The notes below the pieces were generated by a model. That model was not told where the DNA came from, ran no database searches, and saw nothing but the letters and a program-made list of their open reading frames with translations. DNA of 64,000 nucleotides from Streptomyces sp. SID3212 (GTDB lineage: Bacteria; Actinomycetota; Actinomycetes; Streptomycetales; Streptomycetaceae), in contig NZ_WWJY01001238.1 in assembly GCF_009865405.1 (NCBI RefSeq), forward strand, positions 1 through 64,000, given 5' to 3'. Positions 25,438-42,893 of this stretch are shown piece after piece. A program made the translations under genes and the position numbers. Position 1 is the first letter of the stretch. Each line of letters starts with the position of its first letter.

Positions 25438-25440
25438 GAC

Positions 25441-26969: not shown

Positions 26970-26980
26970 TCCAACCCTCT

Positions 26981-27020: not shown

Positions 27021-27044
27021 GGTACCTACTATCAAAGGTTTCCG

Positions 27045-27993: not shown

Positions 27994-28873
27994 TGCCATC
28001 CGGGCCGCGCAACGAGGATGGCATATCTTCCCGGTGCAACCCGGAGGGAAGACTCCACACCTAATCCAACCCGATAAGCCTTATCAAATCCGATGGAGTC
28101 AGGAAGCTACCACTGATGTGGCGAAGATTCTTTCTTATTGGCAGTGGTCGCCACAGGCGAACATTGGCATCGCGTGTGCGCCATCACGTCTGTTCGTGGT
28201 GGACTGCGACCTGCCCAAAACGGAATACCAGCTCAAAGGAACCCTATTCGCCGGTCTACATGAAACGTGGGGACCTCTTGTTGACGGCACCGATGTTTAC
28301 CGCGCGCTATGCGAGCGACTCGGTATCGGATGGGATACGGCTAACGACACCTACCGTGTCTGCACAGGGTCGATGGGATGCCACTATTATTACCGTTGGC
28401 CGGACGGAATCAAGGCTAGTCAAGCTTCGATAATCAAGGGGCTTGTCGACGTCCGCGGAAACGGGGGCGAGCGAGGGGGCTACGTCCTGGGCGCCCAGTC
28501 TCTCACCGATAAGGGTCCGTATATCGCAGAGAACGACTTGCCGGTAGCGGACTGTCCTCCCGCTTTGGTCCAGTACCTCACCGACGGAGCGCGAGACATC
28601 ACGCCGGCATCCCTCAGCGACTTCGTACAGCCTTCCGGCACGGGCACTATCACAGGGCTTGAAGCGTCGGTCCTGAATGCTCCTGAGGGCAACCGAAATA
28701 ACGTCCTGCTGTGGGCGGCACGCGCCGCGGCCAACGACTCAATGCCCATGCAAGAGGTGATCGATGTGCTAGGCGAGGCGTACCGCATGAACGGTGGTGA
28801 TGGTGGCTACCGCCAGGCAGAACAGACGATTCGTTCCGCGTACCGCCTACAGTCCGCTAAGGTGAGCAGATGA
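27977..28873 (+). CDS. Primase-polymerase (AEP, bifunctional DNA primase/polymerase)
   Basis: 298 residues from GTG 27977 (AAAGG upstream; GTG 27968 also possible). The Prim-Pol fold is marked by GWHIFPVQPGGKTP, FVVDCDLP (catalytic Asp-x-Asp), and VDVRGNGGERGGYVLGAQS. It would make primers on phage DNA. The helicase is not fused but encoded separately at 36,612. Confidence 0.9.
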   Translation: MNLLGDAIRAAQRGWHIFPVQPGGKTPHLIQPDKPYQIRWSQEATTDVAKILSYWQWSPQANIGIACAPSRLFVVDCDLPKTEYQLKGTLFAGLHETWGPLVDGTDVYRALCERLGIGWDTANDTYRVCTGSMGCHYYYRWPDGIKASQASIIKGLVDVRGNGGERGGYVLGAQSLTDKGPYIAENDLPVADCPPALVQYLTDGARDITPASLSDFVQPSGTGTITGLEASVLNAPEGNRNNVLLWAARAAANDSMPMQEVIDVLGEAYRMNGGDGGYRQAEQTIRSAYRLQSAKVSR

Positions 28874-29058
28874 GCGCTGGAGAGACACGCGTCGTAATTG
28901 AGCGTTGCGAACTAGATATCCTTGTTGCTGTGGCGCGGCTCTACCTCAACGCCTTCGGTGATGATGAACCTATGAGCTATACGGATGCATGGGGGTATCA
29001 GGACGTGGCGGAGATTGTCAAAAAGTACAGCCAACCTGACAGCAACCCGGTAAGGTGA
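28870..29058 (+). CDS. Small phage protein, unknown (62 aa)
   Basis: ATGA overlap with the primase stop. Helical, acidic; contains LDILVAVARLYLNAFG. No family recognised. Confidence 0.6.
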   Translation: MSAGETRVVIERCELDILVAVARLYLNAFGDDEPMSYTDAWGYQDVAEIVKKYSQPDSNPVR

Positions 29059-29062
29059 GCAG

Positions 29063-29602
29063 ATGAGTGCCGGCGACTGTCAAGTTTATTGCAGTGATTG
29101 CGGTTGCGGGTGTTCGTGTATCACGTACTGCATGGAGTGCGGCTGTCGATGCAAGGAGCGAAGATCAGCGGTGAGTAGCGAAGAGATCCACATCGTGGAT
29201 CATGACAATGGGAATCCCGATGCACCGGAGTGTGTTGAGGACTGCCCCACCTGCAATGAGATCCGCGATCTCAGGGAGAACGGCCCATCCCTTACCAAAG
29301 AACAAAGGGGTAGGCTCAACTCACTTCTCACTCACACAAAAGGGCGGGGCATGCCTGAGGAGCTGGCTCGGGAGTTTGGATACCTGCTGATTGGCGAGAA
29401 TGAACTCCACATGGTGGAGCGCTTCGCCGATCTGTCAGAGGTTGTCGAGTGGATCTCGACTTGGCTCGGATACGATCTATCGGCAGAAACCATCGAAGAA
29501 GTCCGCCACGTGACAGACGCCGGCGGCGCCTCGAACATTCGGATCACGTCTGGTCTTGCGGTGTGGGAGGTTATCGTCGTCAAGCCCAAGCAGGTGCAGT
29601 AG
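29063..29602 (+). CDS. Phage protein with Cys-rich N-terminal metal-binding segment
   Basis: 179 residues from ATG 29063. Residues 6-32 hold ten Cys (CQVYCSDCGCGCSC, then CMECGCRCKE), a dense metal-binding cluster. After a second possible start (GTG 29171) comes an acidic region with CVEDCPTC and then a helical/beta C-terminus. Two fused or overlapping products are possible. Unknown role. Confidence 0.65.
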   Translation: MSAGDCQVYCSDCGCGCSCITYCMECGCRCKERRSAVSSEEIHIVDHDNGNPDAPECVEDCPTCNEIRDLRENGPSLTKEQRGRLNSLLTHTKGRGMPEELAREFGYLLIGENELHMVERFADLSEVVEWISTWLGYDLSAETIEEVRHVTDAGGASNIRITSGLAVWEVIVVKPKQVQ

Positions 29603-29617
29603 TAAGACCAGCAAGAC

Positions 29618-29648
29618 AAACGCCCCCGGCATTGCGTCGGGGGCGTTT
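29618..29648. terminator. Bidirectional terminator between convergent genes
   Basis: AAACGCCCCCG pairs exactly with CGGGGGCGTTT around 9 nt; T-rich on either strand. It separates the plus-strand run from the reverse gene at 29659. Confidence 0.9.
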
Positions 29649-29658
29649 TGCTGTGCGC

Positions 29659-29835
29659 TTACTTCACTGTGGTGATCGATTGTAGGTTCCTGTACGGCAC
29701 GAACGCTACGAACGCGATTGGCTCTTGCTGATGCTTGGCCCTTTTGAACATCACGCCAGGCTCATTGAAGTCCAGAACCTTTGCCTCGATCACTTGCTCT
29801 GATCCGTCCGTGAACTTCACCAAGTACTTTTCCAT
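29659..29835 (-). CDS. Lone reverse-strand small protein (58 aa), candidate lysogenic gene
   Basis: ATG at 29835 (on the minus strand). The compact beta-rich sequence (MEKYLVKFTDGSEQVIEAKV, FVAFVPYRNLQSITTVK) looks like a small barrel. It is the only complete minus-strand gene in the phage part of the window, with its own promoter and terminator. No family is recognised. Confidence 0.7.
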   Translation of the reverse strand: MEKYLVKFTDGSEQVIEAKVLDFNEPGVMFKRAKHQQEPIAFVAFVPYRNLQSITTVK

Positions 29836-29845
29836 GCCTGACAGT

Positions 29846-29874
29846 GTATCAGTCTGAGCTAGCGGAGGAGTCAA
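29846..29874 (-). promoter_or_regulatory. Sigma-70-type promoter for the reverse gene
   Basis: On the minus strand TTGACT (-35, 29869-29874) and TGATAC (-10, 29846-29851) are spaced by exactly 17 nt. The expected start of transcription is 2-6 nt before the ATG, so the mRNA would be nearly leaderless, a common form in actinobacteria. Confidence 0.65.
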
Positions 29875-29948
29875 GCTCTTGAGCATTTGGCCAAGCATTG
29901 ATGGTGTCCGCGCCGGACAAAGGCTATCGAGACGTTAGACAGGAAGTC

Positions 29949-30203
29949 ATGATCACATTCACTTTGAGCATTCCACATCGACTCAAACTAAGGGTGCCGA
30001 CAGCGCCGGGGGTTATGGATGATCCCGCGCTGCTCAAGGCAACGATACTCAAATCAAAGATCGACTTTCTGAACATGGTTGCACAGAACATAACAATAGA
30101 AGCGGAGGACAACGGTGACTGGGTGGACATGGCTGTGGATAGCGTGGATCGGGATGTTTCTCGCGATCGAAATACCAGGACTTTTGAACAAGAGACCGGG
30201 TGA
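29949..30203 (+). CDS. Phage protein, unknown (84 aa)
   Basis: ATG 29949 follows AGGAAG closely; an in-frame ATG at 29901 would add 16 residues. A beta-strand N-terminus (MITFTLSIPHRLKLRV) then a helix. First plus-strand gene after the reverse gene. Confidence 0.6.
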   Translation: MITFTLSIPHRLKLRVPTAPGVMDDPALLKATILKSKIDFLNMVAQNITIEAEDNGDWVDMAVDSVDRDVSRDRNTRTFEQETG

Positions 30204-30351
30204 CACTCTCAGCGAGCACGTGTGGTCATGGTTCGCTATCGACAAGGCCAAGACAAAGAAGAGTCAAGTAGCGGGGCAGGCGCGACGCTTTGTGCTGCTT
30301 GCCTTCATGGCGTGGCTCACTGCGCACTTCCTGAGCGGGGGACGGTTCTAG
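30115..30351 (+). CDS. Membrane protein (78 aa)
   Basis: GTG 30115, inside the previous gene by 89 nt. Two hydrophobic segments (WTWLWIAWIGMFLAIEI and FVLLAFMAWLTAHFL) with a charged loop between. Possibly involved in envelope change or exclusion. Confidence 0.6.
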   Translation: MTGWTWLWIAWIGMFLAIEIPGLLNKRPGDTLSEHVWSWFAIDKAKTKKSQVAGQARRFVLLAFMAWLTAHFLSGGRF

Positions 30352-30437
30352 TGAAGCGATGGCTCGTAATCACCTTGGTTATCGAAGTGCTGATAGCAAG
30401 CGTATTGATCGGCCTCTATGTAGGATCGCGATTCTGA
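30351..30437 (+). CDS. Single-span membrane peptide (28 aa)
   Basis: GTG 30351 overlaps the previous stop by one base; the next gene overlaps its stop (TGATG). MKRW then a continuous hydrophobic helix. Coupling on both sides supports a real micro-gene. Confidence 0.5.
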   Translation: MKRWLVITLVIEVLIASVLIGLYVGSRF

Positions 30438-30739
30438 TGAAGTGTCGTTGCGGCAAGTCGCTCGGTGATTTCCATGAAGCATTCCTTCGAGGGTTGTGTA
30501 CCGAATGCTATGTCAGCACTTCCCTCCCGCTGAATGTATCCAAGTCCAGCATCACGCTCCCGGTCACCGCCGAGCAACTGATAGATGCCGGACATCCCGC
30601 GCCGCCCGGCTACGTGCCGCCTCCCGCGATTGTGTTTACGCGGTGGCAGTCAGCGCTTCTGTGGTGGCACTCCTTGGTGTACGACACCCGGCGCCGGCTT
30701 GGATTCTGGATCGCGGGAGAGACCCCAGAGGACGACTGA
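30437..30739 (+). CDS. Zinc-ribbon protein, unknown (100 aa)
   Basis: Begins MKCRCGKSLGDFHEAFLRGL followed by CTEC, giving two CxC/CxxC pairs. The rest has a Pro-rich linker and a Trp-rich helix. Overlaps its neighbours by 3 and 1 nt. Confidence 0.65.
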   Translation: MKCRCGKSLGDFHEAFLRGLCTECYVSTSLPLNVSKSSITLPVTAEQLIDAGHPAPPGYVPPPAIVFTRWQSALLWWHSLVYDTRRRLGFWIAGETPEDD

Positions 30740-31044
30740 TGAAGCGAATCATTCTCGCCGACACACCAGAGATGGGCGACCTATACCGCAAGCACCGGAC
30801 ATGGTGGTCGCGAGACCTGCCGTCCGAGGCGGACTGGAAAGCCGCCGGCGTGTTCGGCCCCAACCAAGCAGACATGGCGCTCAACGGCACACAGGGCACC
30901 GACTCCTGCCTATATCGGGTGACCGTGCCCTTCGCCCACTCCAACCGCCTGCAAGCGGTGGTCGACACCGCTATCAAGGAAGGTCTCCCGGTGGTCTTCG
31001 ATACCTGCGAGCGGTGGGCAGCAAGAACATGGCCGGCTGCGTGA
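30739..31044 (+). CDS. Phage protein, unknown (101 aa)
   Basis: Start ATG 30739 on the previous stop. Mixed alpha/beta sequence (MKRIILADTPEMGDLYRKH, YRVTVPFAHSNRLQAVVDTA). No family recognised. Confidence 0.65.
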   Translation: MKRIILADTPEMGDLYRKHRTWWSRDLPSEADWKAAGVFGPNQADMALNGTQGTDSCLYRVTVPFAHSNRLQAVVDTAIKEGLPVVFDTCERWAARTWPAA

Positions 31045-31535
31045 TCGAGCCAACAACGGCGGAGGTGTTCGCAAAGATCATGGCTGGCTACTCACCGAAA
31101 GGCCCATCGACTCCGGGCATTCCACCTACGGGGCCGGCGGGGGCAAGCCGCCCATTGTGCGCCGATGAGCTTAAAGAACACTACCGACTGAACGCGCACA
31201 GAACCACGATGATCCTGCCTCAGGATGCGACGTTCACTCCCATCGGGGATGGGGCGTACACCTTCGACGTCGACATGATCGAGCACGGGGGGCCGTGCAA
31301 GCCATGGCGCCGGCCGCTTCGCCGAGACGCGTCGACAGGGCTCCGCTTCCGCTACCGCAAGTGCGGACACGTCTGGGTGTGGGACCGCGGTGAGTGGCGG
31401 CGCGTTCTCTCAGCTACCGCGGTGGGGCGGCTTGAGCGTGAGCTTGGGCTTGCCCGTACCCCTGAACTTCCGGTGGGCAAAGACCGTGCCCTCAGCACAG
31501 AGGAATGGCTAAAGGGGTTCGAAGGATGGGACTGA
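31029..31535 (+). CDS. Phage protein, unknown (168 aa)
   Basis: ATG 31029 within the previous gene. The centre (TFDVDMIEHGG, RKCGHVWVWDRGEWRRVLSA) is beta-rich with a Cys/His. The N-terminus is Pro/Gly-rich. Unknown. Confidence 0.6.
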   Translation: MAGCVIEPTTAEVFAKIMAGYSPKGPSTPGIPPTGPAGASRPLCADELKEHYRLNAHRTTMILPQDATFTPIGDGAYTFDVDMIEHGGPCKPWRRPLRRDASTGLRFRYRKCGHVWVWDRGEWRRVLSATAVGRLERELGLARTPELPVGKDRALSTEEWLKGFEGWD

Positions 31536-31720
31536 GGTACGTACGCAAGGCTGACGGAGTTGTAATGGAAGCGATGACTCACCTTATCCGTACGTGGTCA
31601 TCGTCAAGCCTATGGGTGACCTGTGAAATAGCGGCGCGCTCATATTTGATAGATGGCAAGGCCGTGCCGGCAGAGGAGTTCGAGGCAGCGTTGCGTAAGG
31701 ACGGAGCGATAAAGAAATGA
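31526..31720 (+). CDS. Small phage protein, unknown (64 aa)
   Basis: ATG 31526 with AAAGGGG 7 nt upstream; in-frame ATG 31505 is an alternative. Ends in an EEFEAALRKDG helix. Confidence 0.6.
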   Translation: MGLRYVRKADGVVMEAMTHLIRTWSSSSLWVTCEIAARSYLIDGKAVPAEEFEAALRKDGAIKK

Positions 31721-31935
31721 AGGATCCCAGCGACGATCATTACGGCATTGATGCCGACCGCTCCTGCCGGTCGGCATGTATCTACGATCACGAAGACTGG
31801 CCGTGCAAGACCGTACGCAAGTGGCGGAGGAGTAAGGGTTTCCAGATCGTTGAGCTTCGCAAGATATGCGACGCCTTGATCGTCAGCAATGCCGCTCTCA
31901 ACGAACGGCTTACCAAGCTTGAGGGAATACTGTGA
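31717..31935 (+). CDS. Small Cys-containing protein with C-terminal helix (72 aa)
   Basis: ATGA overlap. CRSAC and a later Cys may bind metal; the C-terminus IVSNAALNERLTKLEGIL is a short coiled coil. Confidence 0.6.
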   Translation: MKDPSDDHYGIDADRSCRSACIYDHEDWPCKTVRKWRRSKGFQIVELRKICDALIVSNAALNERLTKLEGIL

Positions 31936-32357
31936 GCACGCCTATCGAAGAGATCGACACAATGCGCTACCTGGGCGCAATCATCACCCAGGGTGCGAAC
32001 CACTGGACTGCGTACAACTACGCGGTCGAACAGGCCACCAACGCGGGCGACCAAATACCTGCCGCACAAACGGCGCTGCTGGCGTTTGACTCAGGCATCC
32101 GTACCGCGGAAGCCGCGCTACATACCGCACTCGTGGCGGTACCCATGGACCTCCCGACAGTGTTCGCCGCGGCGCAGTCGCTTGATGTGGTGTTCGCCGA
32201 AGTGCGGCCGTTCTTCGAGGCGTTCACCGGACTGTCTCTCTACGCCCAGGAACAGAGCACAGAGGCAGCTAACAGGGCGACTGCGATAGCGGACCTGCTG
32301 CCTGAGATCCGTCAAGCAATCCGCAACGCTTACGCGGCGCTTCCGCCTGAGGAATAG
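31932..32357 (+). CDS. All-helical phage protein, unknown (141 aa)
   Basis: GTG 31932 overlapping the previous stop. Ala-rich, continuous helices with regularly spaced hydrophobics. No family recognised. Confidence 0.65.
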   Translation: MSTPIEEIDTMRYLGAIITQGANHWTAYNYAVEQATNAGDQIPAAQTALLAFDSGIRTAEAALHTALVAVPMDLPTVFAAAQSLDVVFAEVRPFFEAFTGLSLYAQEQSTEAANRATAIADLLPEIRQAIRNAYAALPPEE

Positions 32358-32360
32358 ACG

Positions 32361-32588
32361 ATGCCGCTGCCGGCAAACGTTCAGCACGCGCGTGCTCGTA
32401 AGCCTCGCCACTACTGCCCGCGGTGCGGAATGGTGGCGGGTCAGTACGACGGGGCTGCTATCCCCTGTACGTACGACGTTGTTCCGCCGCACCCGATGTT
32501 TCAGTTCAGCGGCTTTAACAATCCGGGGATGCCGGACGATCAATGTCCCGGCGGCCTCTTTGATCCAGTGAGAGACAGGGCGCCTTAA
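32361..32588 (+). CDS. Zinc-finger-like microprotein (75 aa)
   Basis: HYCPRCGMVAGQYDG plus two further Cys; Pro/Phe-rich C-terminus. ATG 32361 directly after the previous stop. Confidence 0.6.
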   Translation: MPLPANVQHARARKPRHYCPRCGMVAGQYDGAAIPCTYDVVPPHPMFQFSGFNNPGMPDDQCPGGLFDPVRDRAP

Positions 32589-32782
32589 TGTCCTTCAAGG
32601 TAGAGATCGTGATTCATCACATAGATGAGATTGACATCACCACTGTGAATGATCAGGGCAGAGAGATCCTGCCTGCCCAACCGCGGGAGATCGCGCGCCT
32701 GACCGTGCACGGACCACGAGCCTTTGTCAAGGATGTAATCAGCGGCGCAAGTATGGCCATGGACGAGATAGAGGCGTTCTGA
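32588..32782 (+). CDS. Small phage protein, unknown (64 aa)
   Basis: Start overlaps the previous stop (TAATG). Short beta-rich protein (FKVEIVIHHIDEIDITTVND) with a C-terminal helix. Unknown. Confidence 0.6.
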   Translation: MSFKVEIVIHHIDEIDITTVNDQGREILPAQPREIARLTVHGPRAFVKDVISGASMAMDEIEAF

Positions 32783-32928
32783 TGCAGCCTGGGACCATGA
32801 CCACGGAACGCAAGCCTGACTCGATATGCACGGGGTGCGGGGAACGGGTCTTTTGGGCAGTGGCCGGATACTGGGTTCACCTTACCGTCCCGATCATTGC
32901 CCATGACCCCGAACTTAACGAGGAGTAA
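32782..32928 (+). CDS. Small CxxC protein (48 aa)
   Basis: ATG 32782 on the previous stop (TGATG). ICTGCGERVFWAV with a later YWVHL is a half zinc ribbon. Confidence 0.55.
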   Translation: MQPGTMTTERKPDSICTGCGERVFWAVAGYWVHLTVPIIAHDPELNEE

Positions 32929-32932
32929 TTAG

Positions 32933-33139
32933 TTGCAAGACATCTGCCTGTACTGCCATGAACCAATAAAGCTCGGCAAGTACTTTCCCGATAGCAGTAC
33001 CGACAGCTGGTTTCATAGCAAGACAAAGCAATTCACCTGTGACGCTGTTCCCATATGGTATCGCGGGAGGGGTTGGCCTATCGCTCACCCCTATGAGGTG
33101 AGGAGACTAAAGCAGAATGCATACCTCCGTATGCCTTAG
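32933..33139 (+). CDS. Zinc-ribbon-like microprotein (68 aa)
   Basis: TTG 32933 with GAGGAG upstream. ICLYCHEPIKLGKYFPDSS then WFHSKTKQFTCD gives a Cys2-His-Cys set. Confidence 0.6.
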   Translation: MQDICLYCHEPIKLGKYFPDSSTDSWFHSKTKQFTCDAVPIWYRGRGWPIAHPYEVRRLKQNAYLRMP

Positions 33140-33278
33140 CAGTAAGAACGGTGTCGAGAACTGGTCCTGCCCTCAGTGCGGGCGAACCTTGGTTATCCAA
33201 TGGCCATTGGATGGCAAGCGATTCGAAGCAGCTGTCATGGTGCCCGGAGATTCCACTATCACACACCGGAGGGACTAG
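33117..33278 (+). CDS. Small zinc-ribbon-like protein (53 aa)
   Basis: ATG 33117 inside the previous gene end. WSCPQCGRTLVIQWPLDGKR is a typical half ribbon. Confidence 0.55.
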   Translation: MHTSVCLSSKNGVENWSCPQCGRTLVIQWPLDGKRFEAAVMVPGDSTITHRRD

Positions 33279-33280
33279 AT

Positions 33281-33478
33281 ATGGAAAGCCTTACCGAGGA
33301 ACACGCAAGGCGCGCTGAACTGCTCACCAGAATGCAGACCGACGCTCAGAACGTCCGGGGGGTCGCGCTGATGGCCGCGGCATCGTACTGCGGTGGCATC
33401 GCAGTCGCGCGCGGCGTGGGCGCCGCAGATGTCATCGAGCTTGCGCGTGAGTGGGAAGGCTACATCCGCAATGGCTGA
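33281..33478 (+). CDS. Small helical protein, unknown (65 aa)
   Basis: ATG 33281 with CGGAGGG upstream. Helical, Ala-rich (ELLTRMQTDAQNVRGVALMA). Overlaps the MazG-like gene by 8 nt. Confidence 0.6.
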   Translation: MESLTEEHARRAELLTRMQTDAQNVRGVALMAAASYCGGIAVARGVGAADVIELAREWEGYIRNG

Positions 33479-33836
33479 GCTATGGGAGCACGCCGGCGCG
33501 GCGTACGCGTGGATCCGACGCAGCGATCGTGCGCGCCGCGGAGATCAGGCGAGGCCCCACGCGGAACGTCTGGAGTCGATGAGGGCCGATCGACACCTGC
33601 GGTTGCTCAAGGTCTCCGAGGAGCTTGGGGAAGCCACCCAGGCTGCTATCGGGGTGGAAGGGCAGAACCCGAGAAAAGGCGTGACGCACTCCAACTCGGA
33701 TGTCGCGACGGAACTGTGCGACGTCATCCTGTCAACAATGGTTGCGATGCACGACTACACGCATGACCCTGAGGCGTTCATGGATGAGTACTTCGAGGCG
33801 CGGTCGGATCGGATCAAGGAATGGTCTGGCGAATAA
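33471..33836 (+). CDS. MazG-like nucleotide pyrophosphohydrolase
   Basis: 121 residues, ATG 33471. The metal site of all-alpha NTP pyrophosphatases is visible as LKVSEELGEATQAA (ExxE) followed by SDVATELCDVILSTM (ExxD). Phage MazG-like proteins hydrolyse NTPs or, as proposed for some, alarmone-like nucleotides to keep the host active. It lies among replication genes, which fits nucleotide control. Confidence 0.82.
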   Translation: MAELWEHAGAAYAWIRRSDRARRGDQARPHAERLESMRADRHLRLLKVSEELGEATQAAIGVEGQNPRKGVTHSNSDVATELCDVILSTMVAMHDYTHDPEAFMDEYFEARSDRIKEWSGE

Positions 33837-33943
33837 AGTGCTGGCTTTACGCTGAGGGCTTTCGCTACTACTGCCATCGATGCGACAGGGTCTATTGGTT
33901 CGGACAGAAATGCGCACACAAGCCTAGATGGTGGCGCGGATGA
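33821..33943 (+). CDS. Small Cys/Trp-rich protein (40 aa)
   Basis: ATG 33821, overlapping the MazG-like gene by 16 nt. YYCHRCDRVYWFGQKCAH is a compact zinc site. Confidence 0.55.
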   Translation: MVWRIKCWLYAEGFRYYCHRCDRVYWFGQKCAHKPRWWRG

Positions 33944-34068
33944 TATCCGAATGGCTAGCAGTCTATTGGCCGTTCATTAGTTTCTTGGCTTTGTGGGGTG
34001 CCGTAATCGGATGGGTTGCGGCACCCCCGCCACGAAAGAGAGGTAAGCATGTCGCTGAGCGGCATTGA
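33940..34068 (+). CDS. Small membrane protein (42 aa)
   Basis: ATGA overlap with the previous stop. Hydrophobic helix VYWPFISFLALWGAVIGWVA with a basic tail. Confidence 0.55.
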   Translation: MISEWLAVYWPFISFLALWGAVIGWVAAPPPRKRGKHVAERH

Positions 34069-35251
34069 GTGGGGATACTGCGGAGCTTGCGGCAAAGAGG
34101 TCCCTACCGTCATGGCGAAAGGCGAGCGCCTGCTTGAGGACCACTTCGAGGCGGGCGGCTTCAACGTCCAGAATAGTGAACACGACGCGGTGCGCGTCAG
34201 TCACGGTCCGAAGTGCGAAGGGTCGTGGAAATGGCCTTCACTCCCGCCCGAGAATGGTGATGACGAAACTCACCGGTTTCAGGACATCAAAGCCCCTGTT
34301 ACCTCCGACGATGACGGGCTCATCATTCAGAGGAATGACAATAGCATCACCGACGCTGCTGTCCGGAGCGTACAGCGGGACATCCTCTCGACATACTTCC
34401 CGGAGGAGACTGAGCGAAGTCGACGCTGGCGCCGAGCACTCGGCGACGACCCGCATCAGCGGATAGGGAGCATCCGCGGCATCAACGTCCGGACAGACTC
34501 CGCGCTTCCCCCGGGATCCGTCACCGTGGACGGAGTCGACGTCTCGCAGCACATCACTGGGATTACTGTCTCGAATGACATGTATGACGACTTGATGCAG
34601 GCATCCCTAAGTCGAGGGTCCTGGGGGCGATTTCTAGAGGCTATGCGTGGGCTTGGCGCAGCGTCCGCGCAAGCCAACTTCACGCTCTCCGATGCTGCGG
34701 TCGAAGTGCCGCCAAGCAGGGAGAGTGCTGTCAACGACCTGCGCGAAATGTTCGAGAGTTTGGGCAATGCGCCGGCGCCCATACCAGGGGGCGAACGGGT
34801 GCGGGGGCTGCGGGCGGATCGCGTGGCCGTTTATGACATGCCGCGCTGGTTCTATTCCTCTACCCGTAATGAAGCGCTTGAGCGAGAGCGGTCAGAGGTG
34901 GCAGCGCTCGATGAGCGAAGCGACCCGGACGTCACCTGGGAAGCCACGCCGGCGGAAGGCGGGCGGGAGCTTATCCGTTTGGGATTCGACCCAGATGCGC
35001 CGTTCACGTTGGGGTGCCAGCCTCAGTCTCCGGACCGGCCGGAAATGGATTTCTGTGGGGGCGCTTTCCGTAACCGTTACACGCTCGCGCAAGGCGACGC
35101 GCTCGAAGACGTCACGGACTGGATGAGTCGCTATCACCCGATCTTCGCACCTGGGGGAATCCTCACTGAGATAGCAGTGCAACGCGCTGGAATGAGTCAA
35201 GCAACCCTAACGCGTATCCAGAGAGGAGAGACCGGCAATGAAGATCATTGA
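34049..35251 (+). CDS. Phage protein, unknown (400 aa)
   Basis: ATG 34049 (GAGAGG upstream). The N-terminus has CGACGKEV and a later Cys, suggesting a zinc site. The middle is acidic and Arg-rich without a recognised fold. The C-terminus RAGMSQATLTRIQRGE could be a helix-turn-helix. It is the largest unrecognised protein of the early region and overlaps the SsgA-like gene. Confidence 0.65.
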   Translation: MSLSGIEWGYCGACGKEVPTVMAKGERLLEDHFEAGGFNVQNSEHDAVRVSHGPKCEGSWKWPSLPPENGDDETHRFQDIKAPVTSDDDGLIIQRNDNSITDAAVRSVQRDILSTYFPEETERSRRWRRALGDDPHQRIGSIRGINVRTDSALPPGSVTVDGVDVSQHITGITVSNDMYDDLMQASLSRGSWGRFLEAMRGLGAASAQANFTLSDAAVEVPPSRESAVNDLREMFESLGNAPAPIPGGERVRGLRADRVAVYDMPRWFYSSTRNEALERERSEVAALDERSDPDVTWEATPAEGGRELIRLGFDPDAPFTLGCQPQSPDRPEMDFCGGAFRNRYTLAQGDALEDVTDWMSRYHPIFAPGGILTEIAVQRAGMSQATLTRIQRGETGNEDH

Positions 35252-35657
35252 CAGGCACATCATGGCGCATGCGGTTGCATCTGGATTTGCGCCGACCCTC
35301 ATCAGGATAGACCTGCGCTACAACGCATCTGACCCGTACGTAGTGGAGATGATAGCTACCGAAGGGGAAGCTGAGAGCGTCTGGGAACTCTCCCGGGACT
35401 CTCTTGTTCAGGGGATCGCTCTTGGGCACGCGGGGCAGGGTGACGTTGTGGTGTCCACCAACATGGACTGCACCCGCCTGCAACTCACGTCCGATGAGCC
35501 AAGCGAGGGGCGGACTGTGGCAACGGTGGTATTGCCCACTCAATGGGTAAAGGAGTTCCTTCACGACACATGCAAGATGGTTCAACTGGGCGGTGAGTCA
35601 CGCATTATGCAGCCTGTCATCGATCAAGCGATTGAGGAGATCTTGAGTGGCGCATAA
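35238..35657 (+). CDS. SsgA-like (SALP) sporulation/cell-division regulator, phage-encoded
   Basis: 139 residues, the usual SsgA-family length. The match to SsgB is strong through the centre: LRYNASDPYVVEMIATEG, WELSRDSLVQGIALGHAGQG and DVVVSTN, then VLPTQWVKEFLHDT before the C-terminal helix. Host SALPs direct septum placement and peptidoglycan remodelling during Streptomyces sporulation, SsgB recruiting FtsZ. The phage copy could alter host division or help lysogens enter spores. Translation is coupled to its neighbours on both sides (14- and 11-nt overlaps). Confidence 0.85.
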   Translation: MKIIDRHIMAHAVASGFAPTLIRIDLRYNASDPYVVEMIATEGEAESVWELSRDSLVQGIALGHAGQGDVVVSTNMDCTRLQLTSDEPSEGRTVATVVLPTQWVKEFLHDTCKMVQLGGESRIMQPVIDQAIEEILSGA

Positions 35658-36399
35658 CAAGACTCGCGATCTCCTTTACGCGCGAGGCAAGAGGTTGACC
35701 GTACCGGTAAGGGTCGCCCAGGGTATTGTTATCGGCCTCAAGATGGACGGCATGACCAATGAGCAAATAGCTCTTGAGGCCGCTATCAGCATGGGCACAG
35801 TCTCCGACATTGCGCGAGGATACCGTCTCGCCGCCTCTCAGTCTCCTATGAGAGTGCACGTGAATACGGTGCACCGACTCAGCAAGGTACGGCCACCCAA
35901 AGTGCCTGAACGGCCCCGCGGTGGCGCCCTGCCGGCCGTGGGTTCGCTTCGACGGATCGATGCCCTTTGCCTTCAAGGCTATCCCCTCAAGTGGATATTT
36001 CATCGGATCACGGGTCACACCGGAGGGTATGACACCTTCATGCATAGGCGGCGCACTGAATACAAAGCGACGCGCGAGGCCACCTTGAGGACATATCAAG
36101 AACTGTCCGTCAAGAGCCCCGACGACTTCGGTATTCCCGCGGCATCGCAGTCAAGGGCTATCACCTATGCGCGGAAGCGAGGCGCCGCCGCCGGCCATTG
36201 CTGGGATGACGCTACCTGGAACGATGCCGATGCCATCCCAGAATGGACAGGTCGCTGTGGTACGACCGACGGATATCAGATCCACAGGCGAGAGCAGGAT
36301 CTATTTTGGAAATGGACCACCCGGGATCGCACGAAAGGCACCTGGGTAGTAGGGTGCGAGCCATGCAGGAAGGCCCATAGTGAAGCGAAGCACTCTTGA
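35647..36399 (+). CDS. Helix-turn-helix DNA-binding protein, unknown target
   Basis: 250 residues from GTG 35647. An HTH is visible at residues ~25-60 (GLKMDGMTNEQIALEAAISM then GTVSDIARGYRL). The C-terminus has CGTTDGYQIHRREQD and GCEPCRKAHSEAKH, possibly a zinc site of HNH-like type. Regulator or DNA-metabolism factor. Confidence 0.65.
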   Translation: MAHNKTRDLLYARGKRLTVPVRVAQGIVIGLKMDGMTNEQIALEAAISMGTVSDIARGYRLAASQSPMRVHVNTVHRLSKVRPPKVPERPRGGALPAVGSLRRIDALCLQGYPLKWIFHRITGHTGGYDTFMHRRRTEYKATREATLRTYQELSVKSPDDFGIPAASQSRAITYARKRGAAAGHCWDDATWNDADAIPEWTGRCGTTDGYQIHRREQDLFWKWTTRDRTKGTWVVGCEPCRKAHSEAKHS

Positions 36400-36607
36400 T
36401 GGCGAGAGTGGGTATGTATTGATGAGCGTCGCTAAGCCGATCTTGTTCTCATTTGATGAGGACGAGCTACGCCTAGCGGCGCTTACTCATGCGCCCCCTC
36501 ACGAACGGTCGATGTGGAACAGAACTGGCAAGCTGCTCATAAGGGAAGGATGGAAATGGAAATGGACCGGCATTGAGGTCCTAAGCGTATCTGTGATAGG
36601 CGAGTAG
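36380..36607 (+). CDS. Small phage protein, unknown (75 aa)
   Basis: GTG 36380, overlapping the previous gene by 20 nt. The C-terminus is Trp/Lys-rich (REGWKWKWTGIEV). ATG 36422 is a possible later start. Confidence 0.55.
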   Translation: MKRSTLDGESGYVLMSVAKPILFSFDEDELRLAALTHAPPHERSMWNRTGKLLIREGWKWKWTGIEVLSVSVIGE

Positions 36608-36611
36608 CTAC

Positions 36612-37820
36612 ATGGAGTTTGTTAGGGCCGATCCCGCCGGCGACGACGAACCGGTGGGAAGTATTGTTACTGAACTGATTGAGGAAGAAAAGCTAACCCG
36701 CCTCACTGAGGTGGAGCAGCTTAAAGCCCTAGCGCGCGACAAGGCCAACAAGGCCATTGACAAGATGAATGAAGATACGCGCTCCGTCGTGGCTCAGCGC
36801 GCTTCCTCATTCGTCATGAAAAGAACCCACTGGCTGTGGACCGACCGAATCCCCATGGGGGAGGTCACCCTCATAGCCGGCCGCGGTGGTACAGGCAAGA
36901 GCACAATGCTCTCAAGGCTAACCGGAGACATCACCACAGGGACGCTCCCAGGGGAGTTCAGGGGGCGCCCTCGTGCCGTCCTGTACGTCGTCAACGAGGA
37001 CTCGATCGAGAGAACCGTCAACCCCCGCATGGTGGCCGCTGGCGCGGACCTGGAACTCATCTTCTATCTGGCGGTCCCGGACGGGGCGCTTGTGCTCCCT
37101 CGCGACTGCCAGAGGATCCAGGAACGGGCGCTTGAGGTAAACGCTGCCTGCATCATGCTCGATCCTCTGAGCGCGAACCTGGGCGCTAAGAAGAATGATC
37201 AGGATCAGATGCGGACCGACATGCAAGCCATCAGGCGTATGTGTGAAGCCGTGAACATATCCGCTATCGGCCTCGCTCACACCAAGAAAGCGATGACCAA
37301 CAACCTCATGGATGCCATCTTGGGATCTACGGAGTTGGGTAACGTCTGTAGATCGGCCATGGGCGTTATGGCTGACGAATCGCAACCAGGGACCTATATC
37401 CTTTCTCAGGAAAAGTCGAACCTAGGGCGATTGGATATCGCGTCGTATCGCTACGAAATAAAGGGATTCAACATCCCCTTCGAAGGTGAGGTTATCTCTA
37501 CATCCAAGATTCAGATCATTGAGGAGTCCGACGTCAAGGTCTCCGACATGCTGGCAGACAACATGGATACCGGGAACTCCGGGAAGCTTGGAGATGCTCA
37601 GGAAGCGCTGAGAGAATACCTTGAGCAGAGTGGCGAGTCGATGAAGACCGAAGTCGTCAAGTGGATGCAGAAAGAGAACTACCCGCCCAGGACGGTTGAG
37701 CGTGCCGCGGCGAAGCTCAAGGTCGTCTCGAAGACCACAGGATTCGGAAAGGATAGGAAGACGACTTGGTCCCTGCCAGAGCCTCTACCGCCTATTGGAC
37801 CGCCGGCGATTACCGCGTAA
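36612..37820 (+). CDS. RecA-fold AAA ATPase, replicative helicase (RepA-like)
   Basis: 402 residues. AGRGGTGKST is the Walker A loop, ACIMLDPLSA the Walker B strand, and SAIGLAHTKKA a RecA-type sensor/H4 motif; the layout matches the AAA_25/RepA hexameric helicase group. The C-terminus (GDAQEALREYLEQSGESMKT to KLKVVSKTTG) is a winged helix. It likely unwinds phage DNA with the separate primase-polymerase. The candidate origin follows directly. Confidence 0.85.
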   Translation: MEFVRADPAGDDEPVGSIVTELIEEEKLTRLTEVEQLKALARDKANKAIDKMNEDTRSVVAQRASSFVMKRTHWLWTDRIPMGEVTLIAGRGGTGKSTMLSRLTGDITTGTLPGEFRGRPRAVLYVVNEDSIERTVNPRMVAAGADLELIFYLAVPDGALVLPRDCQRIQERALEVNAACIMLDPLSANLGAKKNDQDQMRTDMQAIRRMCEAVNISAIGLAHTKKAMTNNLMDAILGSTELGNVCRSAMGVMADESQPGTYILSQEKSNLGRLDIASYRYEIKGFNIPFEGEVISTSKIQIIEESDVKVSDMLADNMDTGNSGKLGDAQEALREYLEQSGESMKTEVVKWMQKENYPPRTVERAAAKLKVVSKTTGFGKDRKTTWSLPEPLPPIGPPAITA

Positions 37821-37846
37821 TCACTTTCGAGGCTCCTCGAAGGTGA
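37821..37846 (+). terminator. Hairpin after helicase gene
   Basis: TCACTTTCGAG pairs with CTCGAAGGTGA (one G-U) around 4 nt, starting at the base after the stop codon. Confidence 0.5.
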
Positions 37847-38259
37847 TCATGGTCATCGTATGCGTCGACCTGACGATAAGAAAGATCACCTTGCCAGTCA
37901 GAGTGACGATAAGTGTTCGCTCAGGGTAAGGACGCTTACCGTGTGTCGATATGGCTTTCTCCATGCTCGCCAAGCATCCGCCCAGGTCAACGCCATTCTC
38001 GCCATGCTCGCCAAAAAGAGGGCTTTCATAGCCCGCCAAAGGTAGAACGCTTGGCGAGCTGGCGAGCATGGCGAGCATGGCGAGCATGAGGAGAGAGAGA
38101 AGAAGATCTATATATATATAACTGTCTGTCACCTTCCTCGCCATGCTCGCCAATGCCCGCCAAGCTCCCTGTCTGGCGACCATGCGGCGAGCATGCCTGG
38201 GCGTACACACAGAGTGACAGGCACTTGGATCACGAAGGAAACCTAAAGGTGATTCCGAA
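37847..38259. other. Candidate phage replication origin with iterons
   Basis: No gene fits this stretch. TGGCGAGCATG-type repeats cluster here: tandem copies on the plus strand at 38060, 38069 and 38078 (9-nt period, partial copy at 38052), inverted copies CATGCTCGCCA at 37962, 38003 and 38142, and degenerate copies near 38174-38194. Between the blocks lies an AT tract, TCTATATATATATAACT (38108-38124). Further left TGACGATAAG occurs twice (37871, 37904). Iterons beside an AT-rich tract next to the helicase gene are the usual plan of a replication origin. An operator cluster is the main alternative. Confidence 0.65.
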
Positions 38260-38856
38260 TTGAAATCATCAACCCCCAAGCTAGGTCAATGCGCTCGCTG
38301 CAAAGCCTATGTATTCACTGCATGGGTCAATGGCCTAATAACCACAGTCGACAGTACCCCCCTGGGCGTAGAAGCCTACAGGGATGCAGTGATACAGAAG
38401 CGATTCACATTTGACTTCAAGGTTGACTCTCAAGGCAAGCCGGTTTCTCTGATCCAACGAGGACAGTTCAGTTCGTGGGGCAAGCACCCTGTATTGGCTC
38501 AGCATCCGTGCGAGTTGGTGACTGTGAATGTGATCGAAGTTGAGGCCCCAAAAGTACCGGACCCTGCGAGCTTTTCATCAGTAAAGAAGGCTTTTGTTCC
38601 AGACTATTCGAGGGCGAGACAGGTACCAGTTGCGGATCGTGTGATCCATGCCCCTATTGACAGATGGCGTCCTGCTCTCTGTTGTGTCTGTCGCACCTTC
38701 TTTACCGATGAGGAGAAGGATCAGGGCTTGTGGGCCGGCTACTACGTCAGCAGCTCGCAATGGTGGGCAGTGCACTCCGAAGAGTGTCCAAGACCTCCCG
38801 CAGTGCGGGGAGGTATCAAGGTGGGTCGCAAATTCCGATTGGATGGTATGGCATGA
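38260..38856 (+). CDS. Phage protein with two Cys pairs, unknown (198 aa)
   Basis: TTG 38260 directly after the repeat region. CARCKAYVFTAWVNG at the N-terminus and CCVCRTFFTDEEK near the C-terminus suggest zinc binding. The core is beta-rich. Its position next to the repeats makes it a candidate origin-binding protein by context only. Confidence 0.65.
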   Translation: MKSSTPKLGQCARCKAYVFTAWVNGLITTVDSTPLGVEAYRDAVIQKRFTFDFKVDSQGKPVSLIQRGQFSSWGKHPVLAQHPCELVTVNVIEVEAPKVPDPASFSSVKKAFVPDYSRARQVPVADRVIHAPIDRWRPALCCVCRTFFTDEEKDQGLWAGYYVSSSQWWAVHSEECPRPPAVRGGIKVGRKFRLDGMA

Positions 38857-39038
38857 GTTCAGGGATCTACTCGTTCGAAGACGTGCACGGCAATGTGTTT
38901 ACTGTTGAGCGCACGCAGTCCGGTGACGGATTCTGCGTTGAATCTTTCAGTACCAACACCGGTCAGGGAGTGATCGTGACAATGCCTGAGGACGAGATAT
39001 TCAGCATGCTTAATACTTTGATAGAGGCCGTTGGATGA
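38853..39038 (+). CDS. Small phage protein, unknown (61 aa)
   Basis: ATGA overlap. Beta-rich with a C-terminal helix (EDEIFSMLNTLIEAVG). Confidence 0.6.
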   Translation: MSSGIYSFEDVHGNVFTVERTQSGDGFCVESFSTNTGQGVIVTMPEDEIFSMLNTLIEAVG

Positions 39039-39151
39039 TCGAAGCTATCTATAGGCTCCTAGGTTGGGACATCAAGCGTGAAATGGTACGAGCAAGAAAG
39101 GCAGAATCGCAGGATCGCGTTAACCGTCGCCGAGCGTCGAAACGGCAATGA
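39035..39151 (+). CDS. Small basic protein (38 aa)
   Basis: ATGA overlap with the previous stop. Arg/Lys-rich C-terminus (DRVNRRRASKRQ). Weak ribosome-binding site. Confidence 0.4.
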   Translation: MIEAIYRLLGWDIKREMVRARKAESQDRVNRRRASKRQ

Positions 39152-39293
39152 ACTCCACGAGCGGGCAATCAAGCTACGCGAAGAGTTCGAGGATATGAGC
39201 ATCACGCAATCAGTGCACTTGGCTGCAATTCAAATGGGTCTTGTTGATGTGGAGATGGATGATGGTTCACAGGATGATGAAGTTCATGACTGA
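39078..39293 (+). CDS. Small helical protein, unknown (71 aa)
   Basis: GTG 39078, overlapping the previous small ORF by 74 nt; one of the two may be unused. ERAIKLREEFEDMSITQSVH looks like a real helix, and the stop is coupled to the next start. Confidence 0.5.
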   Translation: MKWYEQERQNRRIALTVAERRNGNELHERAIKLREEFEDMSITQSVHLAAIQMGLVDVEMDDGSQDDEVHD

Positions 39294-39519
39294 GCAACTG
39301 CATTACGAGAGGCATCCTGCCGTAAGACTTGCTAGGTGTCCGTTTCACGACACGGCGCACTTCCTTGCTACTGCGACCCTGTTTATCCCCCAGGCGGAGC
39401 GCGAGGAAGAGAAGGCGCTTAGGGAGATGACCGGTGAATACACCCTATCTATGCGTTCTGCTGTACGAGACATTTTGTCTAACGCCACAACAGATAGTGG
39501 ACAGAGCAATGATCTGTAA
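39286..39519 (+). CDS. Small phage protein, unknown (77 aa)
   Basis: ATG 39286, overlapping the previous gene by 8 nt. RCPFHDTAHFLATATL may bind metal; helical C-terminus. Confidence 0.55.
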   Translation: MTEQLHYERHPAVRLARCPFHDTAHFLATATLFIPQAEREEEKALREMTGEYTLSMRSAVRDILSNATTDSGQSNDL

Positions 39520-39700
39520 GCCGTGCGCCGAGGCCGCGGATCGTTGGATGGCTCACACAGACGAGACGTGCGCCGGCGGATGCGACTGCCAGCATCGAAC
39601 CAGAAAGGGCTCCATTGACACTGCCAGTGGTAACGATGCATCGACTGCAAACGCAGTTGGAACAAGGCTGGGAGGAGACAATCACGTGGACCGATCCTGA
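39509..39700 (+). CDS. Small Cys-rich protein (63 aa)
   Basis: ATG 39509 inside the previous gene end. MICKPCAEAADRWMAHTDET then CAGGCDCQH is a plausible zinc site. The C-terminal third overlaps the next gene. Confidence 0.5.
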   Translation: MICKPCAEAADRWMAHTDETCAGGCDCQHRTRKGSIDTASGNDASTANAVGTRLGGDNHVDRS

Positions 39701-40463
39701 GGGAACGGTTCATCACGAGAAGATCTTCCAGGCTTCTATCTTGAGTCAGTTGCAGGCAGAGATTGTTGAGCCTCGCGCCATGACGTCCTCTGAAAACAAG
39801 AACGCGAACAAAGCTGGTTCCAGGGCGCCCGGCAATGCCGATGCACTGCATCTGCGCGAGGAGTGCGTTGCGGCGCTTAAAGAGGCACGCAGAGTCTTGC
39901 AGAACGCAACAGGGCTAGGCACACCCTCCCTGGGCGTACAGATCGGTTATCTTGAGAAGCATGGCTCTAGGCGAGCAGATAATGACGAAGACATCGCCCA
40001 ACTGATAAAAGGTATCCTGAGCGATCTATCGTCCAAGGTTCGATCCGCTCGTATCATCCTTGGTTACGACATGCCTAAGGTTGCATTGCCCGATACTCCG
40101 TGTGATCAATGCGGAGGCATTTTGGTCGTAGCGCAGGACGCATCGTCGGACGTGACATGCGTTGGCGTTGAGGGAATGGCTTCATGCGGAAAGAGGTATA
40201 GGCGAAGGGAATGGGTATCTCTGCTAGAGAAGATCACTAGCAGGATCAGCACCGAGGCCGCGTGCGCCTACACAGGGCGTTCGGTCCCCACCCTGTACAG
40301 GTGGGCCGCTGAGGGGCGCGTACACAGGCAGGTGGACCCCCGGACAGGTCGCTCGACCTGGGACGCCAGCAAGCTACCTCAGGCCGTACCAGGGCACCCT
40401 CCCCCGCCGGCGCCGGCGCTACCTACTGCGCGCACGCCCGCGGATACCGCAGCAGAGGGGTAG
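39615..40463 (+). CDS. Zinc-ribbon and MerR/excisionase-type HTH DNA-binding protein
   Basis: 282 residues from TTG 39615 (AAAGGG upstream; ATG 39636 also possible). Residues 160-200 hold CDQCGGILVV and CGKRYRRREW, a zinc ribbon. Residues ~208-250 form a winged helix of the excisionase/MerR kind (ISTEAACAYTGRSVPTLYRW). Pro-rich tail. As the last gene before the late region it could be a late-gene activator or packaging-site binder. The role is inferred from position. Confidence 0.7.
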   Translation: MTLPVVTMHRLQTQLEQGWEETITWTDPEGTVHHEKIFQASILSQLQAEIVEPRAMTSSENKNANKAGSRAPGNADALHLREECVAALKEARRVLQNATGLGTPSLGVQIGYLEKHGSRRADNDEDIAQLIKGILSDLSSKVRSARIILGYDMPKVALPDTPCDQCGGILVVAQDASSDVTCVGVEGMASCGKRYRRREWVSLLEKITSRISTEAACAYTGRSVPTLYRWAAEGRVHRQVDPRTGRSTWDASKLPQAVPGHPPPPAPALPTARTPADTAAEG

Positions 40464-40738
40464 CTGTCAAGGTGAACCCTTGACTTCCAATAGAGGGTCG
40501 CTGAGAATAGGGCTACCACACGCATGCCCATACAGGGGCTCACCTCTTACAGGTGGGCCCCTTCTCTATGCCCAGGCGCCTTACTTGATGGGGCCACCCG
40601 TCAGGGTAGGGATAGGGATACCTCGGATAGGGATACCCCACCTTGGGGCAGTGGGCAATGCATCAGGGATCAGCCATCAGGGATACGGGATGGGGCACGC
40701 TGATACTCGCTACTACACACTACACAGGTAGGTATCCC
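40464..40738. other. Intergenic region before the late genes, with direct repeats
   Basis: Contains a hairpin (40534-40562) and short direct repeats: GGATAGGGATACC at 40610 and 40625, and CATCAGGGAT at 40661 and 40675. It may hold a late promoter/operator or part of the packaging site. No gene. Confidence 0.45.
40534..40562 (+). terminator. Hairpin terminator at the early/late boundary
   Basis: AGGGGC-T-CACCT pairs with AGGTG-G-GCCCCT, one internal mismatch, loop CTTAC. Confidence 0.65.
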
Positions 40739-41047
40739 ATGGCATTGACTGATGATATGGACTATCGGCGTGGTCGTGGTGGTAGGCCACTCAATCGAGC
40801 TAAAGCTTTGCTCAAGACTGAGGGCTCCAACGTATGCTGGATATGTGGCGCACCCATAGACCTAGTGCTATCGGCACGTGATCCTAACCATGCAATGGCA
40901 TGGACACTGGACCATGCAATACCACTGAGCATCCGACCTGATCTATCCCTTGAACCTAGTAACCATCGCGAAGCGCATCGGAAGTGTAATAGCTCCAAAG
41001 GCAATCGCGTGAGGAAGATCGCTCGTAATGCCTCGCGCGCATGGTGA
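40739..41047 (+). CDS. HNH endonuclease (packaging-associated)
   Basis: 102 residues from ATG 40739. CWICGAPIDLVLSARDPNHA, WTLDHAIPLS and NHREAHRKCNSSKGNR show the zinc Cys pairs and the HNH centre. In many cos-type phages an HNH protein beside the terminase is needed for end cleavage during packaging. Here it lies about 1.4 kb before the small terminase gene, with the endolysin between. Confidence 0.88.
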   Translation: MALTDDMDYRRGRGGRPLNRAKALLKTEGSNVCWICGAPIDLVLSARDPNHAMAWTLDHAIPLSIRPDLSLEPSNHREAHRKCNSSKGNRVRKIARNASRAW

Positions 41048-41375
41048 GTGATCTTTGCTATAGGCAATGATCCAACATTAGGGAATGCAAAGAGATCATT
41101 CACTATAGGCAACTGATCAGGTCTAGGGGAGACAACTACCGATTGGGTAATACGGCACCATATCGGACATAGGGGGGTGGGGGGTGCGAGTATCAAGATC
41201 TTTAGGTTGACCCCGCGCCCATCGGAACCTTTTTTCTCCCTATTGACCTGCGGGTTTCCAGGCGATCATGAAGCTCTATTGGATCACCAATCACTTAATG
41301 CGGCCCATTAGTTTGCTCGACTGCAAACTCAATCCGTAATCCGCTTTACTGCAAACACTTTTGAGGAGCAAGCAA
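41048..41375. other. Non-coding region, candidate cos site / late promoter
   Basis: 328 nt between the HNH and endolysin genes. It holds a G-rich tract (CATAGGGGGGTGGGGGGTGC near 41168-41187), a direct repeat ACTGCAAAC (near 41320 and 41349) and a T run near 41230. Its place between an HNH endonuclease and packaging genes suggests the cohesive-end site; the position is not proved. Confidence 0.4.
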
Positions 41376-42218
41376 ATGGCAGAGATGTGGTTGCCAGGCG
41401 CGACTAGGTACAACATCGGAAATACCGGGACGATGAATGGCGGGCCGGCGCGAGTGACGCACCACGCCACATCCAATACAACGGATTGGACGTTTAAGAA
41501 CGAGTCTGCTTACTTCAACGGCGGTGGCCGCGGTGTCGCACCGCACCTTGTTGCCGATCCTTTCACGGGGCAGATCGCACAGTACTTCCCTGCCAACTCG
41601 CGGGCTCTTGCATTGCAGAACGCGAACGATGTGCGTACCAATAGGACCGGCAAATACAACATTCAGATTGAATGGGTATTCACCAAGGGTGAAGTAGTCA
41701 ACGGAAAGAAGTACACCAACCTCGCCGATACTCCGATGAAGGCTTGGCCTACCATTCGCGCATGGCTTAAGTCTCTGGGTATCGCTGAGACTTTCCCGGG
41801 CGGCGCCCCTCAGTCCTGGGCACGCGACACGGTGTCCCTGGATATGTGGCTCAAGCAGGGTGGGCACTATACGCACGCGCAGGTTCCCGGTAATTCCCAT
41901 GTCGATCCGGGTCCGCTGGGCAACCTCTTTGGCGGATCCACGCCGAAACCTCCGGTGACCGTTCCTACGTACGAGCCATTTCCGGGGGCTGGTTGGTTCT
42001 CGATGGGCCGGCGTTCTCCAATCGTTGCGGCTATGCATGATCGGCTTGTCGCAGAGGGTTGTGGCAAGTACAAGTCATCGCTTGATAAGGACGTCATTGG
42101 TTCCGGCGACAAGGCTTCTTATGAAGCGTGGCAGCGCAAGTGCGGATATACGGGCGCCGCGGCCCAGTGGCCTCCCGGTAAAACTACCTGGGATCGACTT
42201 AAGGTCCCGAACGTTTAG
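41376..42218 (+). CDS. Endolysin: N-acetylmuramoyl-L-alanine amidase with C-terminal cell-wall domain
   Basis: 280 residues from ATG 41376 (TTGAGGAG upstream). Residues 1-175 are a type-2 amidase domain with the zinc His near RVTHHATSN and the later NSHVDPGPLG. After a Pro-rich linker, residues 200-280 (SPIVAAMHDRLVAEGCGKYK to WDRLKVPN) form the cell-wall binding module seen in Streptomyces phage lysins. It cleaves the glycan-peptide amide bond of host wall. It sits before the terminase, about 21 kb from the holin cluster. Confidence 0.9.
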   Translation: MAEMWLPGATRYNIGNTGTMNGGPARVTHHATSNTTDWTFKNESAYFNGGGRGVAPHLVADPFTGQIAQYFPANSRALALQNANDVRTNRTGKYNIQIEWVFTKGEVVNGKKYTNLADTPMKAWPTIRAWLKSLGIAETFPGGAPQSWARDTVSLDMWLKQGGHYTHAQVPGNSHVDPGPLGNLFGGSTPKPPVTVPTYEPFPGAGWFSMGRRSPIVAAMHDRLVAEGCGKYKSSLDKDVIGSGDKASYEAWQRKCGYTGAAAQWPPGKTTWDRLKVPNV

Positions 42219-42226
42219 GAATTCGC

Positions 42227-42890: not shown

Positions 42891-42893
42891 TGA

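Follow-up and report, generated by a model that had tools for sequence, protein, structure and literature searches.

SsgA-like proteins (SALPs) have been described, in the passages of PMC8061694 drawn on here, as unique to sporulating actinobacteria. Phages are nevertheless known to carry copies of host development regulators: passages of PMC7650747 describe the WhiB of mycobacteriophage TM4, which hinders septation and which, unlike the protein studied here, is a transcription factor and not a SALP. In the same source, Hardy et al. reported in 2020 an ssgA gene in the Streptomyces phage Dagobah and suggested that phages manipulate host development, a report and suggestion repeated in a passage of PMC10117723. 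The SALP analysed below is therefore not the first phage SALP. Our search of the open-access literature, which covered titles, the starts of abstracts and passages, returned none naming the SALPs of Loccivirinae phages or testing a phage SALP; phage SALPs are more widely spread than this literature describes, one phage example being named there. As to function, lambda Kil and P1 Icd are described as small phage proteins that inhibit FtsZ; neither is known to be a SALP, and we propose, by analogy, that the SALP of the present locus may likewise act on FtsZ.

The window, i.e. the stretch of 64,000 nucleotides analysed here, starts at the first base of a contig of 74,132 bases. The original prediction had placed a phage-encoded SsgA-like sporulation protein at 35238-35657, and an open reading frame of that kind is indeed present. 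Residues 22-120 of its product (P0001) match PF04686 (SsgA) over the whole model (98/98 positions), with E 1.3e-15 and a score of 57.6 bits, the curated cut-off being 25 bits. When the PDB sequences were searched with phmmer, the significant matches were to SsgB only (3cm1 at 7.2e-5 and 6slc at 5.7e-4; the next at 0.023); protein-kinase rows, none better than E 0.02, were put down to chance. An AlphaFold2 model, built from 13 sequences (P0001 and 12 relatives), has a mean pLDDT of 78.6 and a pTM of 0.73, with low confidence at residues 120-124 and in the last helix. It contains seven strands and three helices, the same count as given for Streptomyces coelicolor SsgB in a passage of PMC8061694. 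The top eight PDB chains for this model were all SsgB (E 4.9e-7 for 3cm1 to 1.6e-4), and VIA-align scored the Streptomyces and Thermobifida SsgB entries at Z 14.5 (3cm1) and 14.1 (6slc and 6suj), the next family reaching 8.9; the 3cm1 alignment has an rmsd of 3.3 over 119 residues. Thus, by sequence and predicted fold, P0001 is a true SALP, which differs from SsgB in being phage-encoded and only 26% identical to the host SsgB.

We then compared P0001 with SsgB residue by residue, in an alignment in SsgB numbering into which one of the host SALPs (L001) fits. The core pattern D-P / W-x3-R / G-D-V is kept in full (D33, P34, Y35, W51, R55, D56, D70 and V71), as are V37, L58, V73, L88, F107, L108, V115, G118 and E120. 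In the passages of PMC8061694, Y35, V37, W51, L88, V115, G118 and E120 matter for sporulation or for the plane of the septum, R55 is a contact of E120, and L57P abolishes sporulation. P0001 carries the changes F53L, L57S, L96T and L97V, and its SSPEG turn is replaced, with a 5-residue insertion there; this turn is variable in chromosomal SALPs too (e.g. L002). The core had been predicted to be intact. Its motifs are present (LRYNASDPY, WELSRDSL and GQGDVVV), so that this description holds for the motifs and has to be qualified at L57 and at the SSPEG turn.

The gene was also predicted to lie in a prophage, which is confirmed by both junctions and a serine recombinase on the contig. A host gene, which we take to be of pirin type, is split, its 3' part ending near 16.04 kb and its 5' part beginning near 67.94 kb, with the core AAGTTCCA at both junctions. 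The phage phiC31 also integrates into a pirin-type gene. Between the junctions lie about 51.9 kb of 56.3% GC, flanked by DNA of 69.1% and 71.8%, and the recombinase gene (contig 66270-67883, PF00239, 54.8 bits) is near the right end, past the window. Because primase, terminase, portal and capsid genes are recognisable (Table 1), the prophage looks complete. The SALP gene is inside this phage genome, in a same-strand run of overlapping genes placed between the primase (28 kb) and the terminase (43 kb). Directly 5' of it, an orphan gene encodes a protein with, by eye, a zinc-ribbon-like start and an HTH-like end; no relative was found in 391 other Streptomyces genomes (E 1e-10) or, by patterns, in IMG/VR. 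The HTH-type gene directly 3' has homologues in Dagobah and in LazerLemon-type phages. Between 33.7 and 36.7 kb, a promoter scan returned 0 sigma-70-type promoter-like sites (1.3 expected). Terminator-like sites numbered five in a terminator scan, against 1.7 expected; one precedes the upstream gene and another falls within the SALP gene. The latter, and the lack of a promoter-like site nearby, make co-expression of the SALP gene with its neighbours less secure. A megablast search of window positions 30-50 kb against phages gave no match.

Table 1 Features of the prophage and of the SALP gene region (window coordinates).
Feature	Coordinates	Strand	Basis or remark
Prophage, part inside window	16037..64000	.	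extends to about 67.94 kb of contig
Left attachment core AAGTTCCA	16037..16044	.	right copy at contig 67935, past window
DUF5753 protein	17557..18399	+	PF19054, 108.4 bits
DUF397 protein	18273..18488	+	PF04149, 42 bits
Lsr2-like protein	19394..19915	+	PF11774, 43 bits; PF23359, 33 bits
Bifunctional primase/polymerase	27968..28873	+	PF09250, 114.3 bits
Orphan 400-aa gene directly 5' of SALP gene	34049..35251	+	overlaps SALP start by 14 nt
Probable ribosome-binding site GGAG of SALP gene	35225..35228	+	read from sequence; 9 nt 5' of ATG
SALP (SsgA-like protein), 139 aa	35238..35657	+	PF04686, 57.6 bits; SsgB fold
Terminator-like site within SALP gene	35380-35397		terminator scan
HTH-type gene directly 3' of SALP gene	35647..36399	+	overlaps SALP end by 11 nt (first start)
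AAA_25 ATPase, next gene but one after SALP gene, early region	36612..37820	+	PF13481, 90.2 bits
Terminase large subunit	42894..44393	+	phrog_9, 210 bits
Portal protein	44400..45833	+	PF04860, 97.6 bits
Major capsid protein	46938..48185	+	PF05065, 142.6 bits

The DUF5753, DUF397 and Lsr2-like genes are, as had been stated, in the same prophage as the SALP gene; no HTH match was found in the DUF5753 protein in Pfam. DUF5753/DUF397 pairs are common in Streptomyces, and the three co-resident regulators are for that reason weak evidence for one coordinated programme. The DUF5753 and DUF397 genes directly follow genes for tRNA-Val and tRNA-Lys (17393-18488), and at 20088-20169, also within the prophage, ARAGORN calls a tRNA-like gene whose anticodon has four bases (attg). 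After the tail genes, seven consecutive genes (58220-62723) encode look-alike proteins, the longest of 354 aa and the other six of 179-199 aa, with MAW/MEW-type starts and ...RRxIAVLPF-like ends. They form a candidate tandem family, perhaps of tail-tip variants; the two proteins tried had no Pfam match over the cut-off.

Relatives of the terminase were found in 40 of 392 Streptomyces genomes, the own genome included. For the 26 other genomes matching at E 6.3e-65 or better, approximately 16-39 kb were fetched on the early side of the terminase gene and searched with a SALP profile. A SALP was found in 2/26 (G152 and G081), a lower bound because the regions are in part incomplete. In the G152 prophage, the SALP gene lies between a primase gene, whose product is 54% identical to the window primase, and the terminase gene, with colinear structural genes beyond. 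The prophages of G379 and G325 have much of their backbone in common with the window prophage, and no SALP was found in them by profile. The own genome encodes a second terminase, 43% identical, on another contig (G000:C89:38414-39844), which probably marks a second related prophage; the profile search found no SALP in the parts fetched. The SALP gene is thus accessory in this group of related prophages.

Beyond this group, tblastn retrieved 7 phage records with P0001, 36 with Comrade gp209, 31 with the Dagobah SALP and 38 with Wakanda gp230. The Comrade and Wakanda searches combined gave 39 Streptomyces phage records, i.e. 30 named phages once nine duplicate records were removed, and one unverified faecal contig. 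In these records only the Dagobah gene bears an SsgA name, the other phage SALPs being "hypothetical protein" or unannotated; the BillNye SALP carries an SsgA-family name in the structure library. All 9 phage SALPs of a first test set exceeded the Pfam cut-off, as did the plasmid SALP tested, Ibantik gp20 (28.8 bits), two prophage SALPs (89 and 77.3 bits) and the faecal contig (93.4 bits). Ibantik gp20 (8896-9258), which was found first by fold and then by SALP profile, is a very divergent SALP in which the G-D-V motif reads A-D-V; its gene is near that of DNA polymerase I, in a phage with an annotated integrase and immunity repressor. PHROGs gave no match for the six phage SALPs tried. IMG/VR scans found none with the Dagobah and Wakanda SALPs and three loci with the Comrade SALP, one of them Comrade itself. 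SALPs also occur on other mobile elements, since an 85-kb plasmid of Saccharopolyspora pogona (NZ_CP031144) carries one (7923-8348, 107 bits) beside parA/parB genes. A tblastn search with a plasmid SALP gave 20 records; three of their rows, two from Pectobacterium (E 4) and one from Streptomyces (pSt2308, E 3), are probably chance matches.

The Dagobah SALP (MT711977, HUN42_00031) scores 74.7 bits and, like that of the window, belongs to a Streptomyces phage, its gene lying two genes after the primase/polymerase gene. Dagobah is however a different phage of 47 kb, and its SALP is 28.5% identical to P0001 over 130 columns. The SALPs of the Loccivirinae (Comrade gp209, Faust gp210, Wakanda gp230) match PF04686 as P0001 does, in phages that also carry Lsr2-like genes: in 7/7 annotated records opened, the SALP gene is 3-4 genes before the Lsr2-like gene. 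Comrade (NC_048728) carries a WhiB-like gene (170), a SALP gene (209) and an Lsr2-like gene (213) in one phage. In contrast to the window prophage and its SALP, these phages are of 121-131 kb and their SALPs of 123-129 aa. In the nine Loccivirinae-type SALPs aligned, W51 is present in 9/9, G118 is replaced in 5/9 and kept in 4/9, and E120 is replaced in 9/9 (six Asp, three Ala). Within the Comrade/Faust/Annadreamy group, a SALP is present, among the matches listed, in 28/28 records with a gp215 homologue of at least 54%, a line drawn after viewing the list; none of the next 32 gp215 rows listed (38.8-40.8%) appears in any SALP list. The Loccivirinae copies are under purifying selection, with dN/dS of 0.12-0.25 in 9/9 pairs from 8 sequences, values that are rough because eight of these pairs have a dS above 1. 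CeilingFan, published as being without integrase and repressor, was rejected as a lytic example; it belongs to the Boydwoodruffvirinae, is in no SALP match list, and none falls in its 18 kb among the matches listed. We therefore used Comrade's own annotation, where no integrase or repressor is named (264 genes, gene 192 left out).

Might the fold have nothing to do with division and instead serve phage replication, or the binding of nucleic acid or of some other phage protein? The SsgB fold resembles that of the MRP and Whirly nucleic-acid binders (Z 7.0-8.9 and 7-12% identity for the P0001 model), and in the window prophage, as in Dagobah and Ibantik, the SALP gene has replication genes nearby. 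Yet the proteins are acidic (pI 4.65 for P0001, 4.05-4.64 for the other phage SALPs computed), the division-relevant SsgB residues are kept, and SALPs detected by sequence are confined to Streptomyces phages, except for the unverified faecal contig and the chance Pectobacterium rows. We thus regard such a repurposed fold as very unlikely.

To place P0001 among other SALPs, we computed a tree of 36 rows, having dropped a fifth host SALP (L005, no tblastn match), a wrong match (L014) and an unverified record (L043). Including that fifth, the own 8-Mb genome encodes five other SALPs over the Pfam cut-off. Over the domain, no aligned SALP is more than 32.8% identical to P0001, and its identity to four host SALPs is 26.0-27.5%; with identities so low, a recent capture, in particular from the present host, was rejected. 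Weak matches to P0001 occur in 28 of 150 genomes, the own included (E 1e-6), reaching at most 42% over a local alignment of about 100 residues, and a pattern method that finds close kin only returned no close relative in IMG/VR or GTDB contigs. In the tree, P0001 sits on a long branch (1.64) next to a chromosomal SALP, with support (85/80) below the tool's threshold. Around the two nearest chromosomal SALPs (L021 and L022; about 17 kb), no window prophage ORF other than the SALP had a match at E 1e-4. The Loccivirinae-type SALPs form one clade (100/97), those of G152 and G081 a pair (98/93), and the Dagobah SALP is elsewhere, apart from P0001. The phage SALPs are not one clade in the best tree, but a constraint holding all 13 together is not rejected (p-AU 0.169), nor are those joining P0001 with G152 and G081 (0.09), with the Loccivirinae type (0.215) or with Dagobah (0.355). 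At that strength, the tree suggests several captures of SALPs by phages. The sequence comparisons also bear on whether P0001 is a passenger, a captured host gene of no benefit to this phage: the gene is absent from most related prophages examined and its product has diverged on a long branch, but the open frame and core residues are kept despite that great divergence and the Loccivirinae copies are under purifying selection, P0001 itself being without a close relative for such a test. A passenger is, of the readings considered here, the one to which we give least credence.

The SALP fold, the retention of most SsgB functional residues and the recurrence in Streptomyces phages make it plausible that the protein acts on host development. 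We suggest, with a confidence that stops a little short of even, that it would be made during lytic growth and would use its SALP surface to act on the host's machinery for division and for the wall, competing with host SsgB/SsgA for partners (FtsZ, or each other); such competition would restrain septation and sporulation and so keep the hyphae open and susceptible. Support comes from the placement between primase and terminase in a run of overlapping genes, the same placement in the G152 prophage, the retention in P0001 of most SsgB residues that matter for sporulation or the septum plane, the recurrence of SALPs in phages and the low dN/dS. Blocking development could pay, since, according to passages of PMC10117723, Streptomyces development limits infection, and most whi genes and ssgB go down when Alderaan infects. 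This proposal is made less secure by the accessory status of the gene in related prophages by phage SALPs not forming one lineage in the best tree and by the change in P0001 at L57, a site where L57P abolishes sporulation in SsgB, as well as by Alderaan itself, for which the passages of PMC7650747 report no SALP and which lowers ssgB transcripts anyway. Its weakest step is the direction of the effect, block and not boost, for which the case is ecological and argued by analogy.

The opposite direction had been part of the original prediction, in which the phage would control sporulation or ride into spores. Of that interpretation, the phage-borne SALP and its sharing of one prophage with DUF5753/DUF397 and Lsr2-like genes stand, while spore riding by this temperate phage is weakened. 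A SALP that drives the host to septate and sporulate, and thereby brings the prophage into spores, would suit a phage with junctions and an integrase, and P0001 keeps G118 and E120; indeed, its retention of nearly all key SsgB residues fits an agonist equally well. Spores, though, inherit a prophage anyway, the SALP gene lies far from the integrase gene, between primase and terminase, and its relatives are fixed in a group of phages of which the one inspected, Comrade, lacks any annotated integrase or repressor, which favours a lytic role. Promotion of sporulation is thus, in our view, distinctly unlikely.

The host SALPs SsgC-G are thought to steer peptidoglycan synthesis or autolysis, and a phage SALP might, like them, alter the wall and so aid lysis, release or dispersal of the mycelium. 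A reference listed in PMC8061694 has a title in which SALPs determine the fate of peptidoglycan, and the prophage Samy promotes mycelium dispersal in vitro (passages of PMC11302927). Against this, the SALP gene is apart from the structural and lysis genes and the same passages report no SALP for Samy, and we hold wall remodelling to be rather unlikely.

A broader form of the competition proposal, which we put forward as possible but doubtful, is that Streptomyces phages repeatedly took up SALPs and keep them as a standard SsgB mimic that would catch FtsZ or host SALPs and stop septation and sporulation; in the branch of lytic phages, where the alpha2-alpha3 loop is worn, nature would then have produced a dominant-negative form of SsgB. 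The recruitment of FtsZ by SsgB could also be probed with natural SsgB variants from phages. More generally, the locus poses a testable question, i.e. whether phages of multicellular bacteria steer septation and sporulation of their hosts by means of a division-site protein copied from those hosts. Given that SALPs recur in Streptomyces viruses, interference with host division may be a tactic to which viruses have turned more than once.
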